Source: Coriobacteriia bacterium (GTDB lineage: Bacteria > Actinomycetota > Coriobacteriia > Anaerosomatales > PHET01). Taken from it: 50,780 bases of DNA. Position numbers and translations under genes: made by a program. Below the pieces are notes generated by a model. That model saw nothing but the letters and a program-made list of their open reading frames with translations, was not told the DNA's origin and did not search any database. The stretch covers positions 68,027 through 118,806 of the forward strand of contig JAXMKZ010000022.1 of assembly GCA_034370385.1 (NCBI GenBank), given 5' to 3'. Of this stretch, positions 22,723-42,986 are shown one piece after another (positions within the stretch are counted from its first letter, which is position 1; each line of letters opens with the position of its first letter).

Positions 22723-24210
22723 CTAAAGGGCGAAGAGTCGCAGGGGCGCTTCCAGTCCAAGGAGGAAGGGCACCCAGCCGATCACGAGCAACGCCCCAGC
22801 CAGCACGCAGGTCACCACGATCGGCACCGTGAGGCCGCCGGAATCAGCCGCATCGGACGACTCCCCCTCACCCGAGTACAGGGCTCTGACGACGGCCCCG
22901 TAATAGGCGACGGAGACGACCGACGAGGCAATACCCACGACAACGAGGCCCGCGTAGCACCAGGAGGCTACGTCCAGCCCGCGTGCGCCAAGGGCCGAAG
23001 AAGCCGACACGGCGGCGCCAAACACCTGGAACTTGCCCCAGAACCCCGCCAGGGGCGGGATGCCGACAAGAGAGACCATGGCAAGCGCGATGCTGGCCCC
23101 AAGCAGCGGATGGGCTCGGGCGACCCCTTTGAGACCGGCGATCGAGCCATCCCACTCCGGACGCACCGACGTCACGGCGAACGCCCCGACGAACGCTGCG
23201 ACCGACCCCAGGGCGTACAGGCTCAGCTGCATGATGGCCGCGCCCGGATTGAGCGAAACCACGGCAACCAACGCGTAACCGGCCTGGGCGATCGCGGCGT
23301 ACCCGAGCATCCGCGTGTACGATCCCTGACCCAGGGCCCCGAGCGATCCCCACACCATCGATAGGGCTGCGATCACACCCAGTATCGGCAGCAGATCGCC
23401 CATCGCCGAACCAGACTCGAATACAGCCTCAGAAGCGGGGACCGCGCTGAAGAAGAAGATGGCCAACGCGCTTCCGGCCGCGAGTTTCGCAGGTCCCGCG
23501 AGGACACCTGCCGCCGGGGCCGGGGCGCACTGATAGGCGTCAGGGGCCCACGTGTGAAACGGAGCAAGACCGACCTTGAAGGCGAGACCGACAAAGACCA
23601 GAGCGAAGCCGGCGACAATCGGAATCGTGACCCCGGCGATCAGAACCGTCTTGCTCAACGAGGAGTACGCGGCATCACCGCGTGTCACGGCGCTCAGCAC
23701 ACCGATACCCATGACGAGAACAGCCGTCGCAACGGCCCCTTGGACGAAGTACTTCAGGGCTGACTCGGACGAAGCCCTACTGCGCGATGCCCCGACAAGA
23801 GCGTAGGCGCATACGGAAACCGTCTCGAGGGCAAGAAACGTCAGGACGAGGTCTGTGGACGACGCGGCAAGGACGCCGGCGGTGGCAGCCAGAGCCGCGA
23901 GCACGGTGACTCTCCCTCGCCACGCCACCTTGGAACCGAGAAGTGAGGCGACCGCTGCGCCGGTCAGCGCAAGGATCAGCCCCGAGACCGTCGACTGCGC
24001 GCCACCCACCGAGAACGTCTCGTAGACTGGGGTGGGTGCCGTCGTCGCACCACCGACCACTCCGGCGAGCCCCGCGGCGCCAAGCAGTGCTGCTGCTATG
24101 GCGCTCGAAGCGTGTGATTCTCGGGAGCCGAAGGCATCCGCCATCAGAGCCAGCACGCAACCCGTCAGAGCGGGCGCGACCATGAGCCAGAACAACGCAG
24201 TGGCCTCCAT
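22723..24210 (-). CDS. nuoN: NADH-quinone oxidoreductase subunit N
   Basis: Antiporter-like proton-pumping subunit of respiratory complex I, 495 residues, hydrophobic throughout. The core motifs of the Mrp-type family are recognisable: a transmembrane glutamate in FLALETVSVCAYALVG, a lysine helix GLAFKVGLAPFHTWAPDAY, and the discontinuous helix after it. It is the last gene of the operon, its ATG overlapping the region just after the nuoM stop, with a terminator-like hairpin downstream. Nothing suggests loss of function. Confidence 0.95.
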   Translation of the reverse strand: MEATALFWLMVAPALTGCVLALMADAFGSRESHASSAIAAALLGAAGLAGVVGGATTAPTPVYETFSVGGAQSTVSGLILALTGAAVASLLGSKVAWRGRVTVLAALAATAGVLAASSTDLVLTFLALETVSVCAYALVGASRSRASSESALKYFVQGAVATAVLVMGIGVLSAVTRGDAAYSSLSKTVLIAGVTIPIVAGFALVFVGLAFKVGLAPFHTWAPDAYQCAPAPAAGVLAGPAKLAAGSALAIFFFSAVPASEAVFESGSAMGDLLPILGVIAALSMVWGSLGALGQGSYTRMLGYAAIAQAGYALVAVVSLNPGAAIMQLSLYALGSVAAFVGAFAVTSVRPEWDGSIAGLKGVARAHPLLGASIALAMVSLVGIPPLAGFWGKFQVFGAAVSASSALGARGLDVASWCYAGLVVVGIASSVVSVAYYGAVVRALYSGEGESSDAADSGGLTVPIVVTCVLAGALLVIGWVPFLLGLEAPLRLFAL

Positions 24211-24211
24211 G

Positions 24212-25651
24212 TCACACTCCCCCGCTTGTGAGCCACGAAGACCCGCTCAAGACGGCATCCACGACACCGGTGATGAGGTGGGGGGCCAGGCCGATCAGCA
24301 CGATGGCTACGGCGAGGGCAGCCACCGTCAGGGTCTCGCGCGTACCGAGATCCCGCAGAGCGGTGAACTCTCCCGGTGGTCCTTGTACCGCCGACCTGAC
24401 AGCACGCAGATTGTACGCAGCAGCGAGGATGACTCCCCCACCCGCGAGTAACATCCACGCACCGTAGCTGCGGAACGCCTCCAGAAACGTCATGAACTCG
24501 CCCGGGAAGCCAGAGAGCCCGGGCAACCCGGCAGAGGCAAGCGCTGCGAAGACGAACGCCGTCCCCCAGCGAGGCATGATCGAGCCCAGCCCTCCGAAGG
24601 CAGACAGCTCCCGAGTGTGAACGCGCTCGTACAACACGCCCACAAGCAGGAACAGCATGCCCGCCACGAATCCGTGGCTGACCATCACAACAACGGCCGC
24701 GGCCCACGAAGCCGGGGTCGCCACGGCGATGGCCAGGGTAGCAAAGCCCATGTGGGCAACCGAAGAGTAGGCGATCAGGCGCTTCAGGTCGGTCTGTACG
24801 AGCGCCGTGGCGGCTCCCCAGACGATACCCACGAGCCCCAAGGCCGCCAAGACATCCGCTGCCGAAGCGAAGCCCTGCGGTGCGAACGGCACGGCAACAC
24901 GCATCAGGCCGTATCCGCCCATCTTGAGCAGGACGCCCGCAAGGATGATCGACCCCGCGGTGGGCGCCTCGGTGTGCGCATCGGGCAGCCACGTGTGCAA
25001 CGGGACCACGGGCACCTTGACGAGAAGCCCGAAGGCGATGACCCAGAAGAACCATGCGGGCATCCCCGGAACGCCGCCAGCCTCGGAGATGGTGTGGATG
25101 GAGGTGCTTCCGACCCGGACAAGCGCCATCAGAATCGCAGCCAGCAGCACCGCGCCTCCGGCAAACGTGTAGACGAGAAACTTCATCGAAGCACGGCGCG
25201 CATCCGCAGAACCCCAGCCCCCGATGAGCAGGAACATCGGCACGAGAACCGACTCCCAGGCGATGTAGAACAACAGAAGGCTGTCGGCCATGAACACCGC
25301 GCCGAGGGCGGCTTGAAGCAGAAGTAGCAACGCGAAATGGCCGCCTGGACGCCTGCTCTCGCCCCATGACGCCGAAGCAGCCGCAAGGCCGATCAATGCC
25401 GTCAGCGCCACGAACGGCAGAGCGAGCCCGTCGAGGCGCAGAGACCACACGATCTGACCCGCTCCCGCTGGAAGCCCGGTGAGCACCTCACCCGCGACCA
25501 CGGATGGAGCAACCACGGCGATCATCGCGGCCTGAAGGGCAGCCCCGCCCAACGCGAGCCAACGCGGACATCCCGGACATCTGCGCCCGGCCACGGCAGA
25601 CACCACAGCCAGCACCAGCGGCACGAGAACGATCAGATCCAGTACGACCAT
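24212..25651 (-). CDS. nuoM: NADH-quinone oxidoreductase subunit M
   Basis: Second antiporter-like pumping subunit of complex I. The transmembrane glutamate is in FYIAWESVLVPMFLLIG, the lysine motif in LLVKVPVVPLHTWLPDAH, and the discontinuous helix begins TEAPTAGSIILAGVLLKMGG. The frame extends to 25687, but the ATG at 25651 lies 9 bases after a strong GGGGAGGT site and beyond the nuoL stop, giving 479 residues, which is normal. It follows nuoL by 7 bases. A long minus-strand frame over the same DNA is only its shadow. Confidence 0.96.
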   Translation of the reverse strand: MVVLDLIVLVPLVLAVVSAVAGRRCPGCPRWLALGGAALQAAMIAVVAPSVVAGEVLTGLPAGAGQIVWSLRLDGLALPFVALTALIGLAAASASWGESRRPGGHFALLLLLQAALGAVFMADSLLLFYIAWESVLVPMFLLIGGWGSADARRASMKFLVYTFAGGAVLLAAILMALVRVGSTSIHTISEAGGVPGMPAWFFWVIAFGLLVKVPVVPLHTWLPDAHTEAPTAGSIILAGVLLKMGGYGLMRVAVPFAPQGFASAADVLAALGLVGIVWGAATALVQTDLKRLIAYSSVAHMGFATLAIAVATPASWAAAVVVMVSHGFVAGMLFLLVGVLYERVHTRELSAFGGLGSIMPRWGTAFVFAALASAGLPGLSGFPGEFMTFLEAFRSYGAWMLLAGGGVILAAAYNLRAVRSAVQGPPGEFTALRDLGTRETLTVAALAVAIVLIGLAPHLITGVVDAVLSGSSWLTSGGV

Positions 25652-25658
25652 CGCGCCG

Positions 25659-27503
25659 CTACCTCCCCAGCCAGATCGTAGCTGCAAGAATGATCGCCAC
25701 CGAAGCGGCTATCACCGACGCATACGCCTGAGCGTCGCCGGACTGCAGTCGGCGCACGCCGGATGAGATCGAGGTAACCGCACGCGCGAGTCCCTCGACC
25801 CAGCCGTCAGCGATCAGCCGATCACCCCACGCCCACAGCCCGCGCGAGAGACCGACCGTGGGGCGCACGATGGCGCGATCCACCAGCGCGTCCCAGTAGT
25901 AGGCCGACGCGATCGTGTCGCCAGCACCTCCCCAGCGTGCACGCGTGACCCCATCGCGGGCAGGTCCTGCAGACGACATCCACCCCGCGATCCCCCCGAT
26001 GGCCGCGAGCAGAAGTGCTGCCGCAGACACACCGATGGCCAGCGGCGCATGCTGGGCGCCCAGCGAGGACGAGACGATGCCCATCCCGCTGCCCGCAACC
26101 GCCGCAGGCAGCACCAGCGCGACGAGCGGCACCAGCATGATCGGAGGGGATTCGTGTGCGTGCGCCCCGGGCACCGCAGACCCGAAGAAGGCCAACCGCG
26201 TAGCTCGCGCGGCGTAAAACGCGGTCAGCAGGCTCGCTGCGAACAGCACACCACCCGCGAGCGGACTCGCGTGCCACACGGCTTCGAGAATGGCGTCCTT
26301 GCTGAAGAACCCGGACAACGGGACCACGCCCGCCAGCGCCAGAACCCCGATGCTCCATGCGGCGAAGGTGATCGGCATGGCACGACGCAGCCCGCCCATC
26401 TCGTGCAGGTCCTGCGTGCCTGCGCCGTGGATGACGCTGCCCGAGACAAGGAACAGCAGCCCCTTGAACGCCGCGTGCGTCATCAGGTGGAAGAATGCTG
26501 CTTCAGGTGCTCCGACGCCGAGCGCCGCGAACATGAATCCCAGCTGCGAGACGGTCGAGTAGGCCAGGACCTTCTTGATGTCTCGCTGGACGGTCGCCAC
26601 CAGTGCCGCACCCAGAGCCGAGACCAATCCCACCGCAAGCAGAAGGGACGTAGCCTGAGCCGAAGCCTCGAAGAGCGGCCACACCCTGACCACCAGGAAG
26701 ACACCGGCAGCAACCATCGTTGCAGCGTGGATCAAGGCCGAGATCGGCGTCGGCCCCTCCATGGCGTCCGGCAACCATGCGTGCAACGGGAACTGCGCGG
26801 ACTTTCCCATCGCGCCGATGGCAAGACCGACCGCAGCCAGGTTGATGGTGGCGGCCGGCAGAGCGCCCAACTGCGACATGACGCCCGAGTAGGAGTCGGT
26901 GCCGGTGGCCACCCAGAGCACCGCTATGGCCACGAGCAAGCCCACATCACCCACGCGCGTCGTGAGAAAGGCCTTGGTCGCAGCGGCAGCCGCCGCGGGC
27001 TTCTGATACCAGAATCCGATGAGGAGGTACGAACAGGCGCCGACAAGCTCCCAGCCCACGAACAGCGCGGTGAAGGAGTCTGCAATGACAAGAAGGTTCA
27101 TCGCACCGGTGAACAGGGAGATGAGCGCGAAGTACCTCCCCCACCCTGAATCGCCGCTGAGGTATCCGATGGAGAAGACCACGACGCACGTGGCAACCAC
27201 GCCAACCACCAGCAGCATCCACCCCGTGAGCGCATCTACCGCCCAGGCCAGCTGAAGAGACGCGGTACTCGTGGCGAACCACGTCACCGACCCCTCGGCC
27301 AATCGGGTACCCGCCTCCGCGTGCCCGCCGGCCGGCAGAGATACGAGTGCTGCGAGCGCGACCGCGACGGTGGCAAGCGGGCCCGTGGCCGCCAGCGCCG
27401 GCGCTACAAGCCCCTGGCCGCGCACGACCAGCGCCCCCAGCAGGGCGATCAGAATCGGCCCGACGACCACGATCCAGGCGTTCGACACCAGTGCGCTCAT
27501 CAT
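25659..27503 (-). CDS. nuoL: NADH-quinone oxidoreductase subunit L
   Basis: Largest antiporter-like subunit of complex I, 614 residues, with the family motifs FVGWELVGACSYLLIGFWY and HAWLPDAMEGPTPISALIH. The C-terminal part includes the long amphipathic lateral-helix region and a final membrane anchor, as in normal NuoL, so the distal proton channel should be intact. The ATG at 27503 overlaps the nuoK stop (ATGA). Confidence 0.96.
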   Translation of the reverse strand: MMSALVSNAWIVVVGPILIALLGALVVRGQGLVAPALAATGPLATVAVALAALVSLPAGGHAEAGTRLAEGSVTWFATSTASLQLAWAVDALTGWMLLVVGVVATCVVVFSIGYLSGDSGWGRYFALISLFTGAMNLLVIADSFTALFVGWELVGACSYLLIGFWYQKPAAAAAATKAFLTTRVGDVGLLVAIAVLWVATGTDSYSGVMSQLGALPAATINLAAVGLAIGAMGKSAQFPLHAWLPDAMEGPTPISALIHAATMVAAGVFLVVRVWPLFEASAQATSLLLAVGLVSALGAALVATVQRDIKKVLAYSTVSQLGFMFAALGVGAPEAAFFHLMTHAAFKGLLFLVSGSVIHGAGTQDLHEMGGLRRAMPITFAAWSIGVLALAGVVPLSGFFSKDAILEAVWHASPLAGGVLFAASLLTAFYAARATRLAFFGSAVPGAHAHESPPIMLVPLVALVLPAAVAGSGMGIVSSSLGAQHAPLAIGVSAAALLLAAIGGIAGWMSSAGPARDGVTRARWGGAGDTIASAYYWDALVDRAIVRPTVGLSRGLWAWGDRLIADGWVEGLARAVTSISSGVRRLQSGDAQAYASVIAASVAIILAATIWLGR

Positions 27504-27793
27504 CCGCGCACCTCGTCGATCTCGTCGAGCCTGGTGGTTCCTAGTACGCGCGCCGCAACCACGACCAATGCAAGCCCGACGGCCGCCTCAGCAGCAGCCA
27601 GAACAAGGACCAGCACTCCGATCGCTTCGATGGCGGCGCCCCCGCCCAGGTTCGAGCCCAGCGCCAGCAGGAGCAGTAGCGCAGCGCCCATCATCACCTC
27701 GACGCATGCGAGCACCGCAATGAGGTCTCGTCGCACGAGCGTGCCGTACAGACCGATGCCGAAGAGCGCGCAGGCGAGTATCACCGAGCTCAT
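27500..27793 (-). CDS. nuoK: NADH-quinone oxidoreductase subunit K
   Basis: Small membrane subunit of complex I with three transmembrane helices in 97 residues. The buried glutamates important for proton transfer appear in VLACVEVMMGAALLLL (helix 2) and AAAEAAVGLALVVV (helix 3), matching the family pattern. It overlaps nuoJ upstream and nuoL downstream by 4 bases each, so stoichiometric coupled translation is likely. Confidence 0.95.
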   Translation of the reverse strand: MSSVILACALFGIGLYGTLVRRDLIAVLACVEVMMGAALLLLLALGSNLGGGAAIEAIGVLVLVLAAAEAAVGLALVVVAARVLGTTRLDEIDEVRG

Positions 27794-28278
27794 TCGTCAT
27801 CACCGCCGGTGAGGGTGACAACCGCGACCAAGGCGGCCAGCAGGAGGAGCCCCGCGACTTCGAACTGCGGAAGCATCCGACCCAGCAGCTCCGCACCGAG
27901 GGCATCCACACCGCTCGGTGCGGCCGCGGGCCCGTCGATGACGAGTGGACGGAGAACCGCCGCGAGCAGCACCGAGATCCCGATGGCGGCCACGGCGGCG
28001 ATCGGGTCGTGTCGCGACTGGAGACTGGGCGAACCGGGCTGGTCCCGGTGGATGAGCATGATGGCGAACACGATGAGGACGAGAACGCCGCCGACGTAGA
28101 GGAAGATCTGCGCCAGCGCGAGGAAGCCGAAGCCGAAGGCCGCGAAGTATCCGGCCAAAGCCAGCAGAAACGCTCCGAGCCCAAGCCCGAGACGCATCAC
28201 ATCACGCGTCAGCAGAACGCTGAGCGCGCCGCCAACCGCCAGAAGGGCGAGAAGCCAGAAGAGCACCGTGGCTCCCAT
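27790..28278 (-). CDS. nuoJ: NADH-quinone oxidoreductase subunit J
   Basis: Membrane subunit J of complex I, 162 residues with five predicted helices. The conserved third helix with its pi-bulge region reads FFLYVGGVLVLIVFAIML-like (residues about 58-76, AQIFLYVGGVLVLIVFAIML). It starts at ATG 28278, overlapping the stop of the NuoI chimera by one base (TGATG), which ties expression of the chimera to the membrane arm. Confidence 0.95.
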   Translation of the reverse strand: MGATVLFWLLALLAVGGALSVLLTRDVMRLGLGLGAFLLALAGYFAAFGFGFLALAQIFLYVGGVLVLIVFAIMLIHRDQPGSPSLQSRHDPIAAVAAIGISVLLAAVLRPLVIDGPAAAPSGVDALGAELLGRMLPQFEVAGLLLLAALVAVVTLTGGDDE

Positions 28279-30335
28279 CAGGCCTCACCCGCTCTAGGGG
28301 CGTCCCGACCAGTGGCACGATACCCGTCACCGGAGCGCACCATCTCTTCCTTGTCGAACACCGTGTACTCGCGCTGGTAGAAGCTGAGCTCGTACTGACC
28401 GGTGTGGTGCAGCGCATCGGTCGGGCACTGCTCGGCACACAAGCCGCAGAAGCAGCACTTCGACAGGTCCAGGTCGAAGCGCGTCACGGAACGCTCTCCG
28501 GGGTCGTCGATGCGTTCGACCGCTATCGCGTAGTCCGGGCACGTCCGGGCGCAGAACGTGCATCCGACACAGACCTCAGAGGCACATCTCAAGCACCGCG
28601 CCGCCTCAGCGAGCCCCTCGAGATGGGTGAAGCCGAGTTCTACTTGACGGAAGTCCCGGGCACGATCGGTGCCCTTGGCCATCGGCATTTCGGTGCGCCT
28701 CCTGGCCACCTCGACACCGTCCAGCGTGGCCGACTGATAACGCGGGTAGACGGGCACCGGCCGATACACGCGGTCCGCACCGAGGTCTACCCCGTCGAGG
28801 TGGCGAAGAATCGATGTGGCCGCCTCATGCCCGCTCGCTATGGATGCGATGGCCGAACCCGGCCCGGTCACGACTTCACCGCAGGCGAAGATGCCGCGGA
28901 CCTGCGTCGTCATCAGGGTGCCGTCAACCGGCAGCAGCCCGCGCTCGGTGAGCACCAGATCGCTCCCGGCCACCAAGCCCGATAGATCGGGGGCCTGGCC
29001 CACGGCAAAGACCACGACGTCGGCCGAAAGGTCGGTGAACTCCTCGGCAAACACCGGCGCGAAGCGTCCCTGGGCGTCGAACACCGACAGGCAGCTCTGC
29101 AGACGCATGCCGGTGGTCTGTCCGTCGGCAACGAGCACCTTGTTGGGCCCGTAAGAGCACATCGCCACAACGCCTTCATCGAGCGCTTCTTCGATCTCCC
29201 AGGGATGGGCAGGAAGCTCGTCCATCGACTCGAGCGACGAGAGGGTCACCTCGGCAGCACCACATCGCAGCGCGACACGGGCGCAATCGACCGCGACATT
29301 GCCTCCGCCGATGACAAGCACTCGCTTGCCCTTGGCGCCGCAGTCGCCCTTCCCGTTGCCCGCCTTGAGAAAGTCGAGCGCGCCCCAGACACCCTCCGCG
29401 TCGGCCCCCGGTATGGGCAGAAGCCGACTCACCTGAAGCCCCGCGGCGATCAGCACCGCCTCGTATTCGCCCACCAGGTGGTCGATGGGCACGTCCACGC
29501 CGATCTGCACACCGGTCACAAGCCGCATTCCCATGGATTGAAGATCGGCGATCTCCTGCGCCAGAACGTCACGAGGCAGGCGGTACGCCGGCACGCCGGA
29601 CAGGAGTGCACCACCCGGGGAGTGCTCCTTCTCGTAGACGTGGACCTCGAAGCCAGCCTGCATGAGGTCAAGGGCCGCAGCCAGCCCACTCGGGCCTGAA
29701 CCGACGATCGCCACACGTTCGTCTCGCGTGATCGGAAGTGGCTTGACCCGTTCCTCGCGGTGATCGGCGTAACGCTCGTAGGCGACCCGGTGAAGGGGCC
29801 GGATGGCAACCGGGTCGTCGTAGTAGTTGCGCTTGCATGCCGACTCGCAGGGGTGATGGCAGATACGCCCCAGAACCCCGGGCATCACATTGCGCGAACG
29901 CACCAGCTCATAGGCTTCGGCCACGAGGTCATCGGCCAAGAGAAAGGCCTGGCCTCTGGCGTCAACATTGGCCGGACAGTTGCCCACGCACGGAGGCAGG
30001 CGATCGGCCCGGTACAGCGAGTCAACGACGTCGTTGTAGGATCCCGCCGGGCCCTCGATGAGTGCGACGCTGTCGCGGCCGAGGATTCCGGTGAGTTTCA
30101 GTGCACCGCGCCACCGCGGCGAGATCGTCACCTTCTCTGCCGGATAGCGCAACGTGCCCGGCTTGACCAGGGTTCGCCGCGCGGTGATGCCCAGACCGGT
30201 GAAGGCGCTCGCCCACTTCTCGAAGAAACCCCTGATCCCCGGGGCGTACTCATCGGTCACGTTCACGGCGATGCGCACGCTCGTGGGTGTGCGATCCGGC
30301 ACGGAGCCGTGCGGCCGTTTCGTCTCTAGAGCCAT
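28278..30335 (-). CDS. NuoI chimera: GltD-like FAD/NAD(P) oxidoreductase inserted into the complex I ferredoxin subunit
   Basis: A 685-residue protein occupying the nuoI position. Residues about 40-82 match the NuoI N-terminal arm (LRYPAEKVTISPRWRGALKL). Residues about 100-575 are a GltD-like oxidoreductase. It has Fe-S cysteines C116, C120, C159, C163 and C167, an FAD fold VAIVGSGPSGLAAALDLMQ (208-226), an NAD(P) fold VLVIGGGNVAVDCARVAL (339-356), and the second FAD motif GIFACGEVVTGPGSA. Residues about 580-668 return to NuoI: C589/C592/C595/C599, C627/C630/C633/C637, and the tail YTVFDKEEMVRSG. Where NADPH-type GltD has arginines after the second Rossmann strand, this reads SLESMDELPA, favouring NADH. 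Start is ATG 30335, overlapping nuoH by 10 bases; the upstream frame to 30602 lies inside nuoH. No nuoE, F or G is present. Confidence 0.9.
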   Translation of the reverse strand: MALETKRPHGSVPDRTPTSVRIAVNVTDEYAPGIRGFFEKWASAFTGLGITARRTLVKPGTLRYPAEKVTISPRWRGALKLTGILGRDSVALIEGPAGSYNDVVDSLYRADRLPPCVGNCPANVDARGQAFLLADDLVAEAYELVRSRNVMPGVLGRICHHPCESACKRNYYDDPVAIRPLHRVAYERYADHREERVKPLPITRDERVAIVGSGPSGLAAALDLMQAGFEVHVYEKEHSPGGALLSGVPAYRLPRDVLAQEIADLQSMGMRLVTGVQIGVDVPIDHLVGEYEAVLIAAGLQVSRLLPIPGADAEGVWGALDFLKAGNGKGDCGAKGKRVLVIGGGNVAVDCARVALRCGAAEVTLSSLESMDELPAHPWEIEEALDEGVVAMCSYGPNKVLVADGQTTGMRLQSCLSVFDAQGRFAPVFAEEFTDLSADVVVFAVGQAPDLSGLVAGSDLVLTERGLLPVDGTLMTTQVRGIFACGEVVTGPGSAIASIASGHEAATSILRHLDGVDLGADRVYRPVPVYPRYQSATLDGVEVARRRTEMPMAKGTDRARDFRQVELGFTHLEGLAEAARCLRCASEVCVGCTFCARTCPDYAIAVERIDDPGERSVTRFDLDLSKCCFCGLCAEQCPTDALHHTGQYELSFYQREYTVFDKEEMVRSGDGYRATGRDAPRAGEA

Positions 30336-31288
30336 GGGAGTACCACCCCCACGAGAAGAAGCTGCACGAGCGCCAGGGGCGTGAGTACCTTCCAGGCGAA
30401 GCCCATCAGCTGGTCGGGCCGCATGCGCGGAAACGTCCACTTGGCCCAGATCATGGCCACGGCGATGAGCACTGCGAGCACGACGAAGATCACGCCACCG
30501 ACCGGGCCGGGAACCCCCAGCCCTCCACCGAAGAACACGGCGGCGCCGAAAAGTGATGCGGCGACGACTCCGCCGTACTCGGCCATCATGAAGATCGCCC
30601 ATCGGATGCCCGAGTAGTCGGCGAAGTAGCCCGCCACCAGCTCAGACTCGGCCTCCGGCAGGTCGAAAGGCCCCCGGTTGAGCTCGGCGAGCGACGCTAT
30701 GAAGTAGACGAGGAAACCCACGGCGACGAGCGGGATCCACCACCAACGCCACTCGGCTCGCATGACGCCGGTGTCGAGCGAACCCGCCAACAAACACAGG
30801 GCCAGCACCGACAGCGTGCGGGGCAGCTCGTAGGAGACCATCTGGGCCGCAGCACGCACGCCTCCGATGGACGCCAGAGTGTTGCGGCTGGACCAGCCGG
30901 CCAAGAGGATCCCCAAAACGCTGATGCCGGGGACGGCGAGGAAGAAGACGGCTCCCGCCTCGATACCGAAGGGTGACCAACCTGCCGCATACGGCACGAC
31001 CGCAAGCGCCGCAGCGCAGGGAACGAACACCAGAAACGGCATGGTGCGAAAGACCGGCACGTCGGCCGAGTTCGGTGTCACATCCTCCTTGAGCACGAGC
31101 TTCACCGTGTCGGCCAGCGTCTGCAGCAGACCGAACGGCCCGGCCTCTTGAGGACCGAGGCGCATCTGGATCTTCGCCGCGATCTTGCGCTCGCCCCACA
31201 CCCCGACCAGAGCACCCAGCGCAATGACAACTGAGGCCGCCAGGCCGTACAGGGCTCCCCAGCCGAACGACGAAGCTGCGGTGCTCAC
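30326..31288 (-). CDS. nuoH: NADH-quinone oxidoreductase subunit H
   Basis: Membrane subunit that forms the quinone channel with NuoB and NuoD, 320 residues and strongly hydrophobic. Family signatures include GERKIAAKIQMRLGPQEAGP near the N terminus, SLAELNRGPFDLPEAESELV (glutamate-rich quinone-tunnel loop) and FFMAEY-like IFMMAEYGGV. It starts with GTG at 31288, overlapping the nuoD stop. All elements needed for a functional quinone site appear intact. Confidence 0.96.
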   Translation of the reverse strand: MSTAASSFGWGALYGLAASVVIALGALVGVWGERKIAAKIQMRLGPQEAGPFGLLQTLADTVKLVLKEDVTPNSADVPVFRTMPFLVFVPCAAALAVVPYAAGWSPFGIEAGAVFFLAVPGISVLGILLAGWSSRNTLASIGGVRAAAQMVSYELPRTLSVLALCLLAGSLDTGVMRAEWRWWWIPLVAVGFLVYFIASLAELNRGPFDLPEAESELVAGYFADYSGIRWAIFMMAEYGGVVAASLFGAAVFFGGGLGVPGPVGGVIFVVLAVLIAVAMIWAKWTFPRMRPDQLMGFAWKVLTPLALVQLLLVGVVLPWL

Positions 31289-32430
31289 CGATCCACCTCC
31301 CCGAACACGGGGTCCAAGGATCCGAGCACGACGATGAGATCGGACAGCGTGTGCCCTTCGGCGAGCATGGGCAGCAGTGCGAGGTTGCAGAACGCCGGAC
31401 TGCGGACGTGCATGCGGTACGGCTTCGGTGTCCCGTCACTCACGAGATAGATGCCGAGTGAACCCCGTGCCGACTCGATGTGATCGTAGGCCTCGCCCGG
31501 CTTGGGCGCGATCAGCCGGCGAAGTCCTTCAGTGCGAACCGGACCGCCCGAGATCTGGGCGACCGCCTGATCGATGATGCGGCAACTCTCCAGACACTCG
31601 AACAGGCGGCAACGGCCCCGGTCATACGCGTCGCCTCGCTCGCCGACGACGACATCGAAGTCCATGCGAGGGTAGACGGAGTAGGGATCGTGCTTGCGCA
31701 GGTCCCAGTTGACGCCGCTGGCACGCGCAGTGGGCCCGGAAGCGCCCCATGCGACGGCATCCTCCGGGGTCAGCACCCCGACCCCTTTCAGCCGCCCACG
31801 GGCGATCGCGTTGCCGAAGTAGAGCTGGTCCAACTCGTCGAAACCGTAGCGGAACGCCTGGGTGAACGCGGTGACGCGGTCGAACCAGCCCTCGGGGGCG
31901 TCGTAGGAGACGCCCCCGGGCCGAACATAGTTGTAGGTCAGCCGAGCGCCGCACAGCTCCTCGAATAGCTCGACGATGCGCTCCCTGTGATCGAACGCGT
32001 AGATGAAGAAGGTGGACGCCCCGGTATCGGCCGCCGAAGCACCGATGCCCATCATGTGGCTCGCGATGCGCTGAAGCTCGCACACGATGACTCGCAGGTA
32101 CTCGGCGCGCTCCGGCACGCGGATCCCCGCAAGGCGCTCGACAGCGCGGCAGTACGACCAGTTCGCATACATCGAGCCGACGTAGTCCAGCCGATCCGTC
32201 AGCGGCACCACCTGTAGGTACGTGCGGCTCTCGGCCATCTTCTCGATGCCCCGATGCAGGTAGCCGATGACCGGCTCCGCCCGAACGACGATATCCCCGT
32301 CGAGGTGCACGATCACGCGGCCGACACCGTGAGTCGACGGGTGCGAGGGACCGATGTTGACCACCAGCTCCTCAACAGGCGTGCCGTCGGGGGTGGACGC
32401 AGGGCGACTGGATTCGATGGTCATGGGCAT
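31285..32430 (-). CDS. nuoD: NADH-quinone oxidoreductase subunit D
   Basis: 49-kDa-type subunit of the peripheral arm, related to [NiFe] hydrogenase large subunits, lining the quinone site. NIGPSHPSTHGVGR (residues 26-39) carries the conserved histidine loop, and YLHRGIEKMAE and the C-terminal LGSLDPVFGEVDR are typical. The length of 381 residues is normal; it is not fused to NuoC. The ATG at 32430 lies 22 bases after nuoC; a second ATG two codons in is possible. Hydrogenase-type nickel cysteines are absent, as expected. Confidence 0.96.
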   Translation of the reverse strand: MPMTIESSRPASTPDGTPVEELVVNIGPSHPSTHGVGRVIVHLDGDIVVRAEPVIGYLHRGIEKMAESRTYLQVVPLTDRLDYVGSMYANWSYCRAVERLAGIRVPERAEYLRVIVCELQRIASHMMGIGASAADTGASTFFIYAFDHRERIVELFEELCGARLTYNYVRPGGVSYDAPEGWFDRVTAFTQAFRYGFDELDQLYFGNAIARGRLKGVGVLTPEDAVAWGASGPTARASGVNWDLRKHDPYSVYPRMDFDVVVGERGDAYDRGRCRLFECLESCRIIDQAVAQISGGPVRTEGLRRLIAPKPGEAYDHIESARGSLGIYLVSDGTPKPYRMHVRSPAFCNLALLPMLAEGHTLSDLIVVLGSLDPVFGEVDR

Positions 32431-32452: not shown

Positions 32453-32923
32453 TCAGATGTAGTCGGGTCGACGAATCATGCGCGGGTCGTCGTAATCCTT
32501 GCGAAGGGGATGACCGACGAAATCCTCGGGAAGGAGGATGCGCCGCAGGTCCGGGTGACCTTGGAACTCCACCCCGAACAGGTCAAAGACCTCTCGCTCC
32601 TGCCACAGGGCCGCAGGCCACACGTCCACAACGGTGTCCACCCATGGATCGTGTCGGGGCACCTGGGTCTTCACGAAGATGGCCGCTGACAGCGAGCGGG
32701 AGTGCAGTCGGTAGACGAGAACGAAGACCTCGCCGCGGTCGACGGCGGTGACCATACCCAGCCGATCGAAGCCCGCGTCGAAGAGGTCACGGCAGGTGGC
32801 CAGCAGCTCGCCTCGCTCAACCCCCACGACTGCGTCTCCGAACTCGAGTGAGAACAAGGGGAAAAGCACGGGGTTGTGCGCTGCGATGCGCTCCAGAAGC
32901 GCCGTCATCTCGTCGTGAGTCAC
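32453..32923 (-). CDS. nuoC: NADH-quinone oxidoreductase subunit C
   Basis: 30-kDa-type subunit of the complex I peripheral arm. The signature VEFQGHPDLRRILLPEDF followed by GHPLRKDY lies at the C-terminal end, as in the family. The length of 156 residues is typical for the unfused form. GTG at 32923 overlaps the nuoB stop (GTGA). No cofactor is bound; its role is structural, next to NuoD. Confidence 0.95.
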   Translation of the reverse strand: MTHDEMTALLERIAAHNPVLFPLFSLEFGDAVVGVERGELLATCRDLFDAGFDRLGMVTAVDRGEVFVLVYRLHSRSLSAAIFVKTQVPRHDPWVDTVVDVWPAALWQEREVFDLFGVEFQGHPDLRRILLPEDFVGHPLRKDYDDPRMIRRPDYI

Positions 32924-33474
32924 CGGTGCTCACCGTCACCAGGTCGAGGCAGCAACATGCGCCTCTCGTGCCGGCGCCCAGGCGAAATCGACTCCTCGCG
33001 CACGAGTTCTCTGAGCTGGACGATGCCATCCTGCAGAGACTCCGGCCGCGGCGGACACCCTGCGATGTAGACGTCAACCGGTAGAAACTCGTCGGCGCCG
33101 CGCACCACCGAGTACGTGTCGTAGTAGAAGATTCCCCCTGAGATGGTGCAGTTGCCCATGGCGACGACCCACTTCGGGTCAGGCATCTGCTCGTAGAGAC
33201 GCTTGACCACGGGCTTCATCTTCTCGGTGATGGTACCGGCCAAGATCATGACGTCGGTATGGCGAGGATCGGGCCGGGGAAACGTCCCCAGGCGATCGAA
33301 GTCGAACTTCGAGAAGGAAGCGGCGATGAGCTCCATAGCACAGCATGCCGTGCCCATCGGAAACGCCCACAGCGACTGCCCCCGCGACCAATTCACGAGG
33401 GCGTCGACGCTCGTGAGCACCACCCCACCCGGACCGGTGTCCATGGCGGATCCGACCTTGTCTACGAGCGCCAT
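32920..33474 (-). CDS. nuoB: NADH-quinone oxidoreductase subunit B
   Basis: Carries cluster N2, the last Fe-S centre before quinone. All four ligands are present: adjacent C44 and C45 in MGTACCAMELI, C109 in AMGNCTISGG and C140 in YIAGCPPRPESL. The protein is 184 residues with a basic C-terminal tail. Its ATG at 33474 overlaps the end of nuoA by 13 bases. An intact N2 site means the complex can still pass electrons to quinone even though the usual NADH module is missing. Confidence 0.97.
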   Translation of the reverse strand: MALVDKVGSAMDTGPGGVVLTSVDALVNWSRGQSLWAFPMGTACCAMELIAASFSKFDFDRLGTFPRPDPRHTDVMILAGTITEKMKPVVKRLYEQMPDPKWVVAMGNCTISGGIFYYDTYSVVRGADEFLPVDVYIAGCPPRPESLQDGIVQLRELVREESISPGRRHERRMLLPRPGDGEHR

Positions 33475-33821
33475 TCAAGCGCCCCCTTGCGCCATGCGTA
33501 GACAAGCCCGAGAGCAAGAAAAGCGACGAAGACGGCAACCTCGAGAACGGCTATCAGACTGCCGCGCAGCTGAGTGGCGATGGCGAAGAGGAGCACCGCT
33601 TCTGCGTCGAACAGGACGAAGAGCATGGCGACTGTGGAGAAGCGCACGCGTTGTGCGGACCAGGGCGCCCCGGCTTGATCCATCCCGCACTCGTAGGGTT
33701 CGCCCTTTTCCCGCGTAGGGCGCCGCGGTGAGAGCAGAGCGTTAGCAAGGAACACGACGCCGATGAAGGCCGTCGCAGCCAGAGAGAAGCCGATCACAAA
33801 CCAGACAGTGCCGCCGGGCAA
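33462..33821 (-). CDS. nuoA: NADH-quinone oxidoreductase subunit A
   Basis: First gene of the operon; three-helix membrane subunit of 119 residues. The conserved loop KGEPYECGMDQAG contains the cysteine of the quinone-proximal loop, followed by RFSTVAMLFVLFDAEAVLLF with the buried acidic residues of helix 2. Start is TTG at 33821 behind an AAAGGGG-rich leader; no ATG exists in frame nearby. A leader of about 30 bases is predicted from the promoter at 33860-33888. Confidence 0.94.
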   Translation of the reverse strand: MPGGTVWFVIGFSLAATAFIGVVFLANALLSPRRPTREKGEPYECGMDQAGAPWSAQRVRFSTVAMLFVLFDAEAVLLFAIATQLRGSLIAVLEVAVFVAFLALGLVYAWRKGALEWRS

Positions 33822-37051: not shown

Positions 37052-37086
37052 GCGACGATGTCTTGGGCTCGTCGTACAATGACGAC
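37052..37086 (+). promoter_or_regulatory. Promoter and probable operator of the ParE-type TA pair
   Basis: GCGACG (37052-37057; 3 of 6), 17 bases, then TACAAT (37075-37080; 5 of 6). The -10 lies inside the inverted repeat GTCGT-N6-ACGAC (37071-37086), the usual layout for autorepression by a toxin-antitoxin complex. Transcription would start about 30 bases before the antitoxin ATG. The rest of the 36836-37116 gap shows only weak promoter-like hexamers (TATACT at 36976-36981 on plus, TATCAT at 36892-36887 on minus). Confidence 0.42.
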
Positions 37087-37116
37087 AGGCCCTTCGCGAA
37101 GAACGTGAGGTTCACC

Positions 37117-37341
37117 ATGACCGTTGAGGAACTCAAACTGGTGGCGCGCCAACTCAGCCCAGCGGAGCGAGCGGAACTCGCGACCGATCTCCTTCTCAGC
37201 TTGGACGCCCTCAGCGAATCTGAGATCGAGCATCTGTGGCTTGAGGAGGCATCGCGGCGGGATGCAGAAATCGACGCCGGCACTGCTCGACTCATTCCTG
37301 GTGACCAGGTCATCGCTGACGCCCGGGCCCGCCTGCGGTGA
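37117..37341 (+). CDS. Addiction-module antitoxin (PF09720-like)
   Basis: A 74-residue acidic protein of the putative addiction-module component family (Unstab_antitox): MTVEELKLVARQLSPAERAE followed by LATDLLLSLD, then a charged helix ending in VIADARARLR. These proteins neutralise ParE/RelE-type toxins. The frame opens at 37063, but ATG 37117 has a GAGG site 6 bases upstream and gives the typical N terminus. It overlaps the toxin start by 4 bases. Confidence 0.85.
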   Translation: MTVEELKLVARQLSPAERAELATDLLLSLDALSESEIEHLWLEEASRRDAEIDAGTARLIPGDQVIADARARLR

Positions 37342-37634
37342 TCGCGCCCTACTCGTTTCATGAGGTCGCCACCGACGAGTTCAACGAGGCGGCCGCGTAC
37401 TACGACACCGAGCACCGGGGTCTCGGCTCGCTGTTCATCGATGCCGTGGTGAGCGCGATCGCGCACATTCGCGAGTACCCGGAGTCGTGCGCGGTGCTGC
37501 GCGACCGGAATCGTAGAATGCTCGTCCACGGATTTCCTTACTCACTTGTCTACTCCTTCGTCGGCGGTCACGTCCGCATACTGGCCGTTGCGCATGGCAG
37601 CAGAAGGCCGTACTACTGGAGCGGGCGACACTAG
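37338..37634 (+). CDS. ParE/RelE-superfamily toxin
   Basis: A 98-residue toxin of the plasmid-stabilisation (ParE/RelE) fold: FHEVATDEFNEAAAYYDTEH at the N terminus, RILAVAHGSRRPYYW at the C terminus, with the usual core MLVHGFPYSLVYSF. Start is GTG 37338, overlapping the antitoxin stop region (GTGA). Family members inhibit gyrase or cleave mRNA on the ribosome; which applies cannot be told. The pair looks intact. Confidence 0.88.
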   Translation: MIAPYSFHEVATDEFNEAAAYYDTEHRGLGSLFIDAVVSAIAHIREYPESCAVLRDRNRRMLVHGFPYSLVYSFVGGHVRILAVAHGSRRPYYWSGRH

Positions 37635-40746: not shown

Positions 40747-41838
40747 CTACACGAGCGGGGCCACTCCGCGTTTGATGGCGCGGACGATACGGTCGGACAC
40801 CGCGCGGTCCCAGCGTTTGGGCACCACCCACGTGGGTGGCTCCGCAAGAATGTTCGCAACGCTCTCGATGATCGCATCACTGTCTGCCGAAACCAGGCGA
40901 TTGGCGCCAGCCTCCACGGTAGCGACCTGCTCGGTGCAGTCGCGCACCGTGATGCAGGGTGTGCAGATGGAGCACGCTTCCTCCTGGACTCCGGTGGAGT
41001 CGGTCAGCACTACAGCCGCATCGCGCTCCAGCGCCAGCATCGACCGATAGGGAACCGCGTCTACCACTGACACGGCTCCAGCGGCCTGCAGTCCCGCCTC
41101 TGCCATCGCCGCGCGCAGCCCGTTCGTGTCGGGCACGAGCACGGGCAGCGGCAGAGCCGCGAGCCCTTCGAGTATGGCCGACAGCCGCGCAGGATCCGCG
41201 AGGTTCTCAGGACGATGGAAGCAGCCGAGCGCGTAGCCGTTGGTCACCAAACCGTATGCTCCAGCCACGTCGATTCCCGCGATCGCATCAAGATGTCGGA
41301 TCACCGATTCCGCCAGAATGCTACCGACGAAGTGAACGCGCTCAGGTTCCACGCCCTCGTCTTCCAGGTTCTCCAACGCCCTCTCAGTGGGCGTCAGATG
41401 CAACGACGCGATACGGGATACGAGAACCCGGTTCACCTCCTCCGGGACGCGCAGATCCCCGCAGCGCAACCCCGCATCGAGGTGGATGACCGGCACACCG
41501 GCCTTCACTGCTGAGACGGCGGCCGCAAGGGTTGCAGACACGTCCCCGACCACGAGAGCCGCGTCGGGACGCTCGCGGCCGAAAAGACCCTCGAAGGCGA
41601 CCATGGCCTTGCCGGTCTCCATCGCGTGAGTCCCCGTGCCGATATCGAGAAACCAGCGCGGAGTGATGAGGTCGACGCCGTAGAACGAGAGGCCTTCAGC
41701 CGAGTCATCATCGTGGGGGGCTCCCCGCGAACCCGTGAATGCGACGTCGCACTCAATACCCGCCCGCGCCAGTTCAGGCAGAAGCGGACCGACCTTGACC
41801 ACGTTCGGTCGTGCACCGAGGGCGACTATGATTCGCAA
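40747..41838 (-). CDS. WecB-like UDP-N-acetylglucosamine 2-epimerase, divergent copy
   Basis: A 363-residue homologue of non-hydrolysing UDP-GlcNAc 2-epimerases, also similar to the gene just upstream. The fold motifs are present (LGARPNVVKVGPLLPE, PEEVNR, FHRPEN), but several active-site motifs differ. TGQH is TGSR, HLEAGLRSGD is HLDAGLRCGD (catalytic Glu to Asp), the ...HPRT loop is VPDTNG, and TDSGGVQEE is TDSTGVQEE. The His of HRxEN and the Asp of VVGD remain. It may act on another sugar nucleotide, be a regulatory partner of the canonical copy, or be inactive. Start is TTG at 41838. Confidence 0.85.
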   Translation of the reverse strand: MRIIVALGARPNVVKVGPLLPELARAGIECDVAFTGSRGAPHDDDSAEGLSFYGVDLITPRWFLDIGTGTHAMETGKAMVAFEGLFGRERPDAALVVGDVSATLAAAVSAVKAGVPVIHLDAGLRCGDLRVPEEVNRVLVSRIASLHLTPTERALENLEDEGVEPERVHFVGSILAESVIRHLDAIAGIDVAGAYGLVTNGYALGCFHRPENLADPARLSAILEGLAALPLPVLVPDTNGLRAAMAEAGLQAAGAVSVVDAVPYRSMLALERDAAVVLTDSTGVQEEACSICTPCITVRDCTEQVATVEAGANRLVSADSDAIIESVANILAEPPTWVVPKRWDRAVSDRIVRAIKRGVAPLV

Positions 41839-41899
41839 CGGCAGCTCTCTCGCAGGCAGAGGGGTTGACTCTCTCCCCTACGCTTTCCCGAGTCTGCCG
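41839..41899 (-). promoter_or_regulatory. Leader hairpins before the divergent wecB copy
   Basis: The 65-base spacer between the two wecB genes can close with CGGCAG (41839-41844) against CTGCCG (41894-41899). It encloses a second hairpin, AGGGG/CCCCT, around a 10-base loop. The outer stem ends at the TTG start of the downstream gene and would cover its ribosome site. Significance is uncertain. Confidence 0.28.
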
Positions 41900-41903
41900 C
41901 TAG

Positions 41904-42986
41904 CTAATCGCTGAGCGGAAGGATTCCGCCCTGAAGTGCGTCCACCACCCGCGTGGCCACCGCAGTGTCCCAGCGCTCAGGCGCGGTCCACTCGCGAGTC
42001 CCCGCAAGCGCCGCCGAGACTGCACTGCCGATTGCGCCACGATCCGCGCCGGTCAACCGGTTGGAACCGATCTCAAGGGTCACCTGACGTTCAGTATTCC
42101 TGCGAACCGTGACGCACGGCGTCCCCACCATGCAGGACTCTTCCTGAACTCCCCCTGAATCGGTGACCACGACGGCGGCATCGCGCTGCAGAGCGAGCAT
42201 ATCCAGGTAGCCCACCGGATCGACAACGCGCACAGGCCCGCCGTCCGTAACGCCCGCAGCCTCAAGGAGCGGCCGCGTGCGAGGGTGCGCCGGCAGCAGC
42301 ACCGGCATACCGATGTCTCCAAATGCTGCGATGATCTGGGCAAGACGCAGCGGGTGATCGGTGTTCTCGGGACGATGAACCGTGGAGAGCACGTAGGCTT
42401 CGGGAACGAGGCCCTGCGACCCACACACGTCACGATCGGCAATCTGAGGAAGATGGCGAAGTACGGACTCGGCCATGACGTTGCCGACAAAGTGGATGCG
42501 CGCCGGATCACAGGCCTCTGCGAGCAGACTGTCCGCAGCCGTCGCCACCGGCGTGAGCAGCATCGCCGACAGCTGGTCTGTCACGAGGCGGTTCACCTCT
42601 TCGGGCATAGACATGTCCCCACTGCGCAGTCCGGCCTCGAGGTGAACGACGGGAATCCCGATCTTGACCGCGGCAAGCGCCCCGGCGAGCGTAGAGTTCA
42701 CGTCACCGACCACGAGCAGCGCATCGGGACGCTCCCGGATCAAGAGCTCCTCCAGCGCGATCATCGCCTTGCCGGTCTGCACCGCGTGAGTGCCGGATCC
42801 CACACCGAGAAACCAAGCCGGCTCGGGAAGCGCGAGGTCACGAAAGAACACGTCGGACATCGACGCATCGTAGTGCTGACCGGTGTGGGCGATGGAGGCC
42901 TCGATCCCCGCGGCGGCAAACGCGGGCATGAGCGGCCCGACCTTGATGAAGTTGGGGCGCGCCCCGACTACGACGATCAATCGCAT
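41904..42986 (-). CDS. wecB: UDP-N-acetylglucosamine 2-epimerase (non-hydrolysing)
   Basis: Converts UDP-GlcNAc to UDP-ManNAc for surface polysaccharide. Standard motifs are intact: GARPNFIKVGPLMP, TGQHYD, VVGDVNSTLA, HLEAGLRSGD with the catalytic glutamate, PEEVNRLVTD, TVHRPENT, and TDSGGVQEESCMVGTP. The length of 360 residues is typical. The ATG at 42986 follows a GAGAGGA site. It lies between the initiating transferase gene and the divergent paralogue, with which it was presumably formed by tandem duplication. Confidence 0.94.
   Translation of the reverse strand: MRLIVVVGARPNFIKVGPLMPAFAAAGIEASIAHTGQHYDASMSDVFFRDLALPEPAWFLGVGSGTHAVQTGKAMIALEELLIRERPDALLVVGDVNSTLAGALAAVKIGIPVVHLEAGLRSGDMSMPEEVNRLVTDQLSAMLLTPVATAADSLLAEACDPARIHFVGNVMAESVLRHLPQIADRDVCGSQGLVPEAYVLSTVHRPENTDHPLRLAQIIAAFGDIGMPVLLPAHPRTRPLLEAAGVTDGGPVRVVDPVGYLDMLALQRDAAVVVTDSGGVQEESCMVGTPCVTVRRNTERQVTLEIGSNRLTGADRGAIGSAVSAALAGTREWTAPERWDTAVATRVVDALQGGILPLSD

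Follow-up and report, generated by a model that had tools for sequence, protein, structure and literature searches.

The window described here is the whole stretch of DNA that was analysed, 50,780 nucleotides from a Coriobacteriia bacterium of the order Anaerosomatales, and it carries on the (-) strand, from 33821 down to 22723, a complex I operon with the gene order nuoA-B-C-D-H-I*-J-K-L-M-N, in which nuoI* denotes a fused NuoI/GltD-like gene. All ten other complex I subunits were recognised with NCBIfam models, namely nuoA (33462..33821), nuoB (32920..33474), nuoC (32453..32923), nuoD (31285..32430), nuoH (30326..31288), nuoJ (27790..28278), nuoK (27500..27793), nuoL (25659..27503), nuoM (24212..25687), and nuoN (22723..24210), each on the (-) strand. 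The subunits of the quinone module scored 217 (NuoB), 488 (NuoD), 118 (NuoC), and 298 (NuoH) bits, and the cysteines expected for cluster N2 are present in NuoB by eye; the antiporter-like subunits L, M, and N are accompanied by J, K, and A. This operon contains no nuoE, nuoF, or nuoG.

The fused gene nuoI* (28278..30335, (-) strand) encodes 685 amino acids, overlaps the stop of nuoH, and abuts the start of nuoJ. Its product begins with the N-terminal arm of NuoI (residues 34-90, T-x-x-YP...RWRG; 30066..30236, (-)), recognised by an arm profile and by the NuoI model TIGR01971, of which positions 1-42 match residues 47-88 when the N-terminal stretch is searched alone (E 6e-5). The GltD-type Fe-S domain follows (Fer4_20, residues 114-189; 29769..29996, (-)) and then the FAD and NAD(P) Rossmann domains (Pyr_redox_2, residues 207-502, from Pfam and the structure model; 28830..29717, (-)). 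The motif C581-x2-C584 (RCLRC; 28584..28595, (-)) marks the border between the module and NuoI, and beyond it lie the 2[4Fe-4S] core and tail of NuoI (residues 585-665; 28341..28583, (-)), which, searched alone, match TIGR01971 positions 40-121 (E 3e-22). The NuoI arm and both CxxCxxCxxxCP motifs are thus present and interrupted by the insert: the two NuoI parts are collinear and near-complete and flank an entire GltD-like module with Fe-S, FAD, and NAD(P)H sites, and PRK12771, a GltD-like NAD(P)-binding protein, matches residues 110-643 with 431 bits. The earlier note had claimed exactly such a split NuoI, and this claim held; its proviso that an N-terminal stretch without NuoI similarity would refute the idea was not met.

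Because the insert splits the NuoI family match, the whole protein scores only 95 bits against TIGR01971, in two stretches, and falls below the curated cut-off of 113 bits. We note that the plain NuoI proteins of the same genome likewise fall below this cut-off (107 and 97 bits). The profile built from the fused arm matched the fused NuoI as well as both plain NuoI proteins of the genome, which were not part of the profile (E 2e-14 and 4e-5). When run against 2761 open reading frames of ≥150 amino acids from all fetched loci, it gave 74 matches, of which the weakest 25 were inspected and were all open reading frames in the NuoI slot. Two other readings of the gene were considered and rejected. 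First, the 2[4Fe-4S] end is not simply part of PRK12771, since it scores 78 bits to NuoI vs 34 to PRK12771. Second, the module is not merely a neighbouring PRK12771-type paralog, as the paralogs of relatives have neither the arm nor the NuoI core.

Conservation was assessed across 51 non-redundant Actinomycetota fusions. Cys-116, Cys-120, Cys-159, Cys-163, Cys-167, Cys-584, and the eight NuoI cysteines, which are the ligands of N6a and N6b, are invariant, Cys-581 is present in 50 of the 51, and position 182 (29790..29792, (-)) is always either His (41) or Lys (10). The Cys-581/Cys-584 pair lies five residues before the first NuoI cysteine and is also invariant in free relatives of the module, which indicates that it belongs to the module and not to NuoI. 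Fifteen cysteines and one His/Lys make sixteen ligands, which we infer to serve exactly four [4Fe-4S] clusters. Comparison with the homologous proteins GltD, NfnB, and StnC suggests that Cys-120, Cys-159, Cys-163, and residue 182, the aligned counterpart of the cluster ligand Lys-170 of StnC (PMC10482914), would hold the FAD-proximal cluster, and Cys-116, Cys-167, Cys-581, and Cys-584 the distal one. The ligand set would then provide a continuous chain FAD - [4Fe-4S] - [4Fe-4S] - N6a - N6b. Further, Arg-252, an FAD-contacting residue aligned with NfnB Arg-201 and StnC Arg-239, is invariant. Like the FAD and NAD glycine motifs and every cysteine of the module, it is conserved across several classes and at identities of 35-80%.

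In an AlphaFold2 model of the whole protein (25 sequences), the pLDDT of the GltD module was mostly >90, with both the FAD and NAD(P) folds at high confidence, and that of the NuoI part was <50; residues 545-685 modelled alone (AlphaFold2, 16 sequences) gave a pLDDT of 42. The closest solved structures to the module are NfnABC (9bov, 9n5u), StnC of the Sporomusa Stn transhydrogenase (8oh5), NfnB, GltD, and dihydropyrimidine dehydrogenase (DPD), all of which pass NAD(P)H electrons from FAD via clusters of this kind (PMC10482914, PMC8097209).

Where the second strand of the NAD(P) fold ends, Leu-Glu is found in 42 of the 51 fusions and Arg-Arg (YRRxxxxMPA) in the remaining 9. The protein of the window is of the former type (Leu-368-Glu-369, end of β2 of the second Rossmann fold; 29229..29234, (-)). 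An acidic residue at this position of a Rossmann fold usually favours NADH and an Arg pair NADPH. It is therefore plausible that NADH is favoured here and NADPH in the YRR lineages, although this rests on a two-residue signature only, without activity data.

The genome is 2.69 Mb in size, with an estimated completeness of 100%. Searches restricted to NuoF families (PF10589 NADH_4Fe-4S and PF01512 Complex1_51K) revealed no NuoF-type protein genome-wide, and no HydB/NuoF-type protein was found genome-wide either; the operon itself encodes neither an NfnA-like protein nor another second flavin partner such as HydBC. Complex I genes also occur in two additional operons, L091 (C44) and L092 (C51), each with its own plain NuoI. 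A plain nuoI thus exists in the genome, yet it belongs to other complete operons and is no spare part for the nuoI* operon. We note that a single cell has three complexes I, with NuoF missing from the whole genome. The gene for MqnA/D of the menaquinone (futalosine) pathway is present.

The full-length fusion was found in 60 of 69 sampled genomes of the order Anaerosomatales and in none of 229 sampled genomes of other orders of the class Coriobacteriia. In a 396-genome sample of the phylum, full-length fusions of 35-50% identity also occurred in about ten families of other Actinomycetota classes. The fusion occupied the nuoI slot in every context fetched, in some of which nuoBCDI* is divergent from nuoAHJKL(M)N, and it was the only NuoI in the surveyed operons. 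The same fusion recurs in dozens of independent assemblies, including G014, a single contig, and chance and assembly error are therefore ruled out. The cognate NuoD is likewise missing from all nine Anaerosomatales genomes that have no fusion, and only plain-type NuoD proteins of ~33-47% identity are left in them; the identity of the cognate NuoD is 73-100% in G000, G014, and G025. We conclude that a genome retains or loses the fused subunit along with its complex.

Three cases of fusion were found in Chloroflexota. In G1123, the insert precedes the first cluster motif, and the open frame runs on from NuoH; L130:9396-12434 (-) is a single open frame of 1013 amino acids comprising NuoH and a GltD-containing NuoI. 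In G1259 and G1027, the insert lies between both cluster motifs, with NuoI positions to ~66 before it and from ~70 after it. One of the two between-motif loci (L121:7914-9833 (-) and L122:8205-10142 (-)) has a YRR and the other a CLE motif. Among ~300 Bacillota genomes, no inspected match reached the NuoI arm region (the weakest matches were left out). The operons with fused NuoI of families f89 and f70 (L105, L106, and L107) contain extra antiporter-like subunits, with four or five NuoL/M/N-type genes, which might point to a larger pumping arm.

Trees of the module placed the sequences of the order together with families f50, f92, f84, f74, and f94 in one clade, f42 in a second, and f89, f70, and f27 in a third group near Chloroflexota sequences. 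A single origin of all inserted modules was rejected (AU p 0.0002), as were a grouping of all three Actinomycetota groups (p 1e-5) and of the order clade with f42 (p 0.017); a grouping of f42 with f89, f70, and f27 was not rejected (p 0.22). Because the tree tests reject joint origins, it is likely that the module was acquired at least twice. For the same-site cases, a swap of the module inside an already split NuoI remains possible and is not excluded; the between-motif insertions differ from them in position. We lean slightly towards a bolder reading, in which a GltD-like module was inserted into NuoI several times independently, at two sites, in Actinomycetota and Chloroflexota, giving rise to FAD-based complexes in which five clusters, N2 included, follow the flavin, and of which some would use NADH specifically and others NADPH. 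In the same trees, close free relatives of the inserted module are GltD-FlpD paralogs encoded in Wood-Ljungdahl operons. PRK12771-type paralogs of relatives lie in such operons with MetF and NuoEF-like genes, and in some relatives a GltD-FlpD paralog shares its Wood-Ljungdahl operon with genes for acetyl-CoA synthase and MetF/MetV and with NuoEF-like genes (L096:457-11521 (+)).

We consider it likely (probability of about 0.75) that the complex I made from this operon is a proton-pumping NAD(P)H:menaquinone enzyme in which a single protein, the NuoI with its GltD-like domain, serves as the input module. The architecture, the operon, its conservation, and its co-inheritance are shown; the cluster assignment, substrate, direction, and pumping are inferred, and activity is untested. 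In this view, NAD(P)H, more likely NADH in this organism, would bind the second Rossmann fold and reduce FAD by hydride transfer. Electrons would leave FAD singly, through the proximal and then the distal [4Fe-4S] cluster to N6a and N6b of the NuoI core, and would pass from N6b to N2 of NuoB and to menaquinone at NuoD/NuoH, driving the antiporter-like subunits. This reading is supported by the collinear arm and core, the full subunit set, the absence of NuoF, the ligand set, the retention and repeated acquisition of the module, and MqnA/D. Against it stand the lack of biochemical data and the pLDDT of the NuoI part, which leaves cluster distances without model support. Further, respiratory quinones went undetected in the two cultivated members of the lineage (PMC9686372), and the two other complex I operons of the cell presumably use another donor. 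Most sampled relatives do carry a menaquinone (futalosine) gene despite that quinone result.

The remaining claims of the earlier note fared as follows. The absence of nuoE, nuoF, and nuoG from the operon held and extends to NuoF families genome-wide, and its refuting condition, a normal nuoEFG and nuoI elsewhere in the genome, was half fulfilled, in that plain nuoI genes exist in their own operons and NuoF does not. The idea that NAD(P)H is oxidised directly on the wire to N2, with one protein replacing the NADH module, is supported by the ligand chain and the cognate NuoD, the function itself being inferred. The preference for NADH over NADPH held only in part, as it is plausible here and not universal. 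The note had suggested a survey of related genomes and a structure prediction: the former indicates that the fusion is wider than one genome and probably evolved more than once, and the latter gave a reliable GltD module and no support for docking either way. The note knew of no description of the inserted arrangement, and in the open-licence literature searched we found no published description of the fusion either.

Among the rivals, the one that survives best, although unlikely, is a reversed or mixed use, in which the NuoI clusters receive electrons from reduced ferredoxin (or quinol plus proton motive force) and NAD(P)H is formed by the GltD module, or in which electrons of ferredoxin and NAD(P)H are confurcated. 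The lineage is anaerobic, with ferredoxin proposed as a possible donor (PMC9686372), ferredoxin is the presumed donor of plain 11-subunit complexes (PMC11238625), and the FAD-contacting Arg-252 is invariant. However, the operon lacks an NfnA-like partner or second flavin, StnC shows no bifurcation despite having the same Arg (PMC10482914), the ligands read as one unbranched wire, and the two separate plain complexes could serve ferredoxin. It is very unlikely that the module is a docking or regulatory leftover, with FAD/NAD binding lost or idle and ferredoxin electrons entering N6a/N6b directly. No activity data exist for the module, and a side branch of StnC with two clusters is an idle remnant (PMC10482914), but the conservation of the glycine motifs, Arg-252, and module cysteines and the acquisition of the module more than once argue against this. 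An artefact of gene calling, frameshift, or assembly joining nuoI to an unrelated gltD-like gene is all but excluded, as we found no evidence for it and the many independent assemblies and the lack of another NuoI in the surveyed operons oppose it.

Returning to the NAD(P)H:menaquinone reading, the nuoI* complex can be compared with several known systems. The Nuo complex of Desulfitobacterium hafniense (PMC11238625) has the same nuoABCDHIJKLMN set without nuoEFG, a full quinone module, and antiporter-like subunits; its NuoI, however, is plain and ferredoxin-like, with an unknown donor or ferredoxin, whereas nuoI* has an NAD(P)H dehydrogenase domain built in. Like the 14-subunit complex I with NuoEFG, the nuoI* complex would perform NAD(P)H:quinone oxidoreduction via N6a, N6b, and N2, but in place of FMN and N3, N1b, N4, and N5 in three subunits it would use FAD and two clusters, all within a single inserted domain whose fold is unrelated. 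In StnC, too, a GltD domain is embedded in another protein, one of the NuoG type, and its Lys-170 corresponds to the His/Lys position of nuoI*; in StnC and NfnABC, however, the GltD domain supplies a soluble bifurcating module of the HydBC type, whereas the nuoI* module resides in NuoI and would feed a membrane complex. DPD and GltD, the small subunit of glutamate synthase, share the GltD module with FAD and two [4Fe-4S] clusters, and in DPD the chain continues through a 2[4Fe-4S] ferredoxin domain, but their final acceptor is an FMN enzyme and not quinone, and they have no complex I partners. The F420H2 dehydrogenase Fpo and cyanobacterial NDH-1 are complex I cores with alternative electron input, which is provided by the separate protein FpoF or by ferredoxin docking and not by a domain of the I subunit. 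Cultivated Anaerosomatales have complex I loci without NuoEFG, for which donors such as ferredoxin were proposed (PMC9686372); the sections of that paper bearing on complex I do not mention a fused NuoI. A review of GltD-like proteins names glutamate synthase, DPD, Nfn, and AegA, with no complex I in its relevant sections (PMC8097209).

The electron source of NADH-less 11-subunit complexes I is an open question, and the gain of the NADH module is a classic evolutionary one. The fused subunit offers a candidate answer inside one subunit, at which evolution seems to have arrived repeatedly, with insertion points and nucleotide signatures that differ. If true, it would revise the published inference that complex I of cultivated Anaerosomatales needs other donors for want of NuoEFG, and studies of mechanism and structure would gain an NAD(P)H:quinone complex I of much reduced size.

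Elsewhere in the window, we note by eye a small two-gene unit with the look of a RelBE-type toxin-antitoxin system (37063-37634 (+)) and two adjacent paralogous UDP-GlcNAc 2-epimerase-like genes (40747-42986 (-)).
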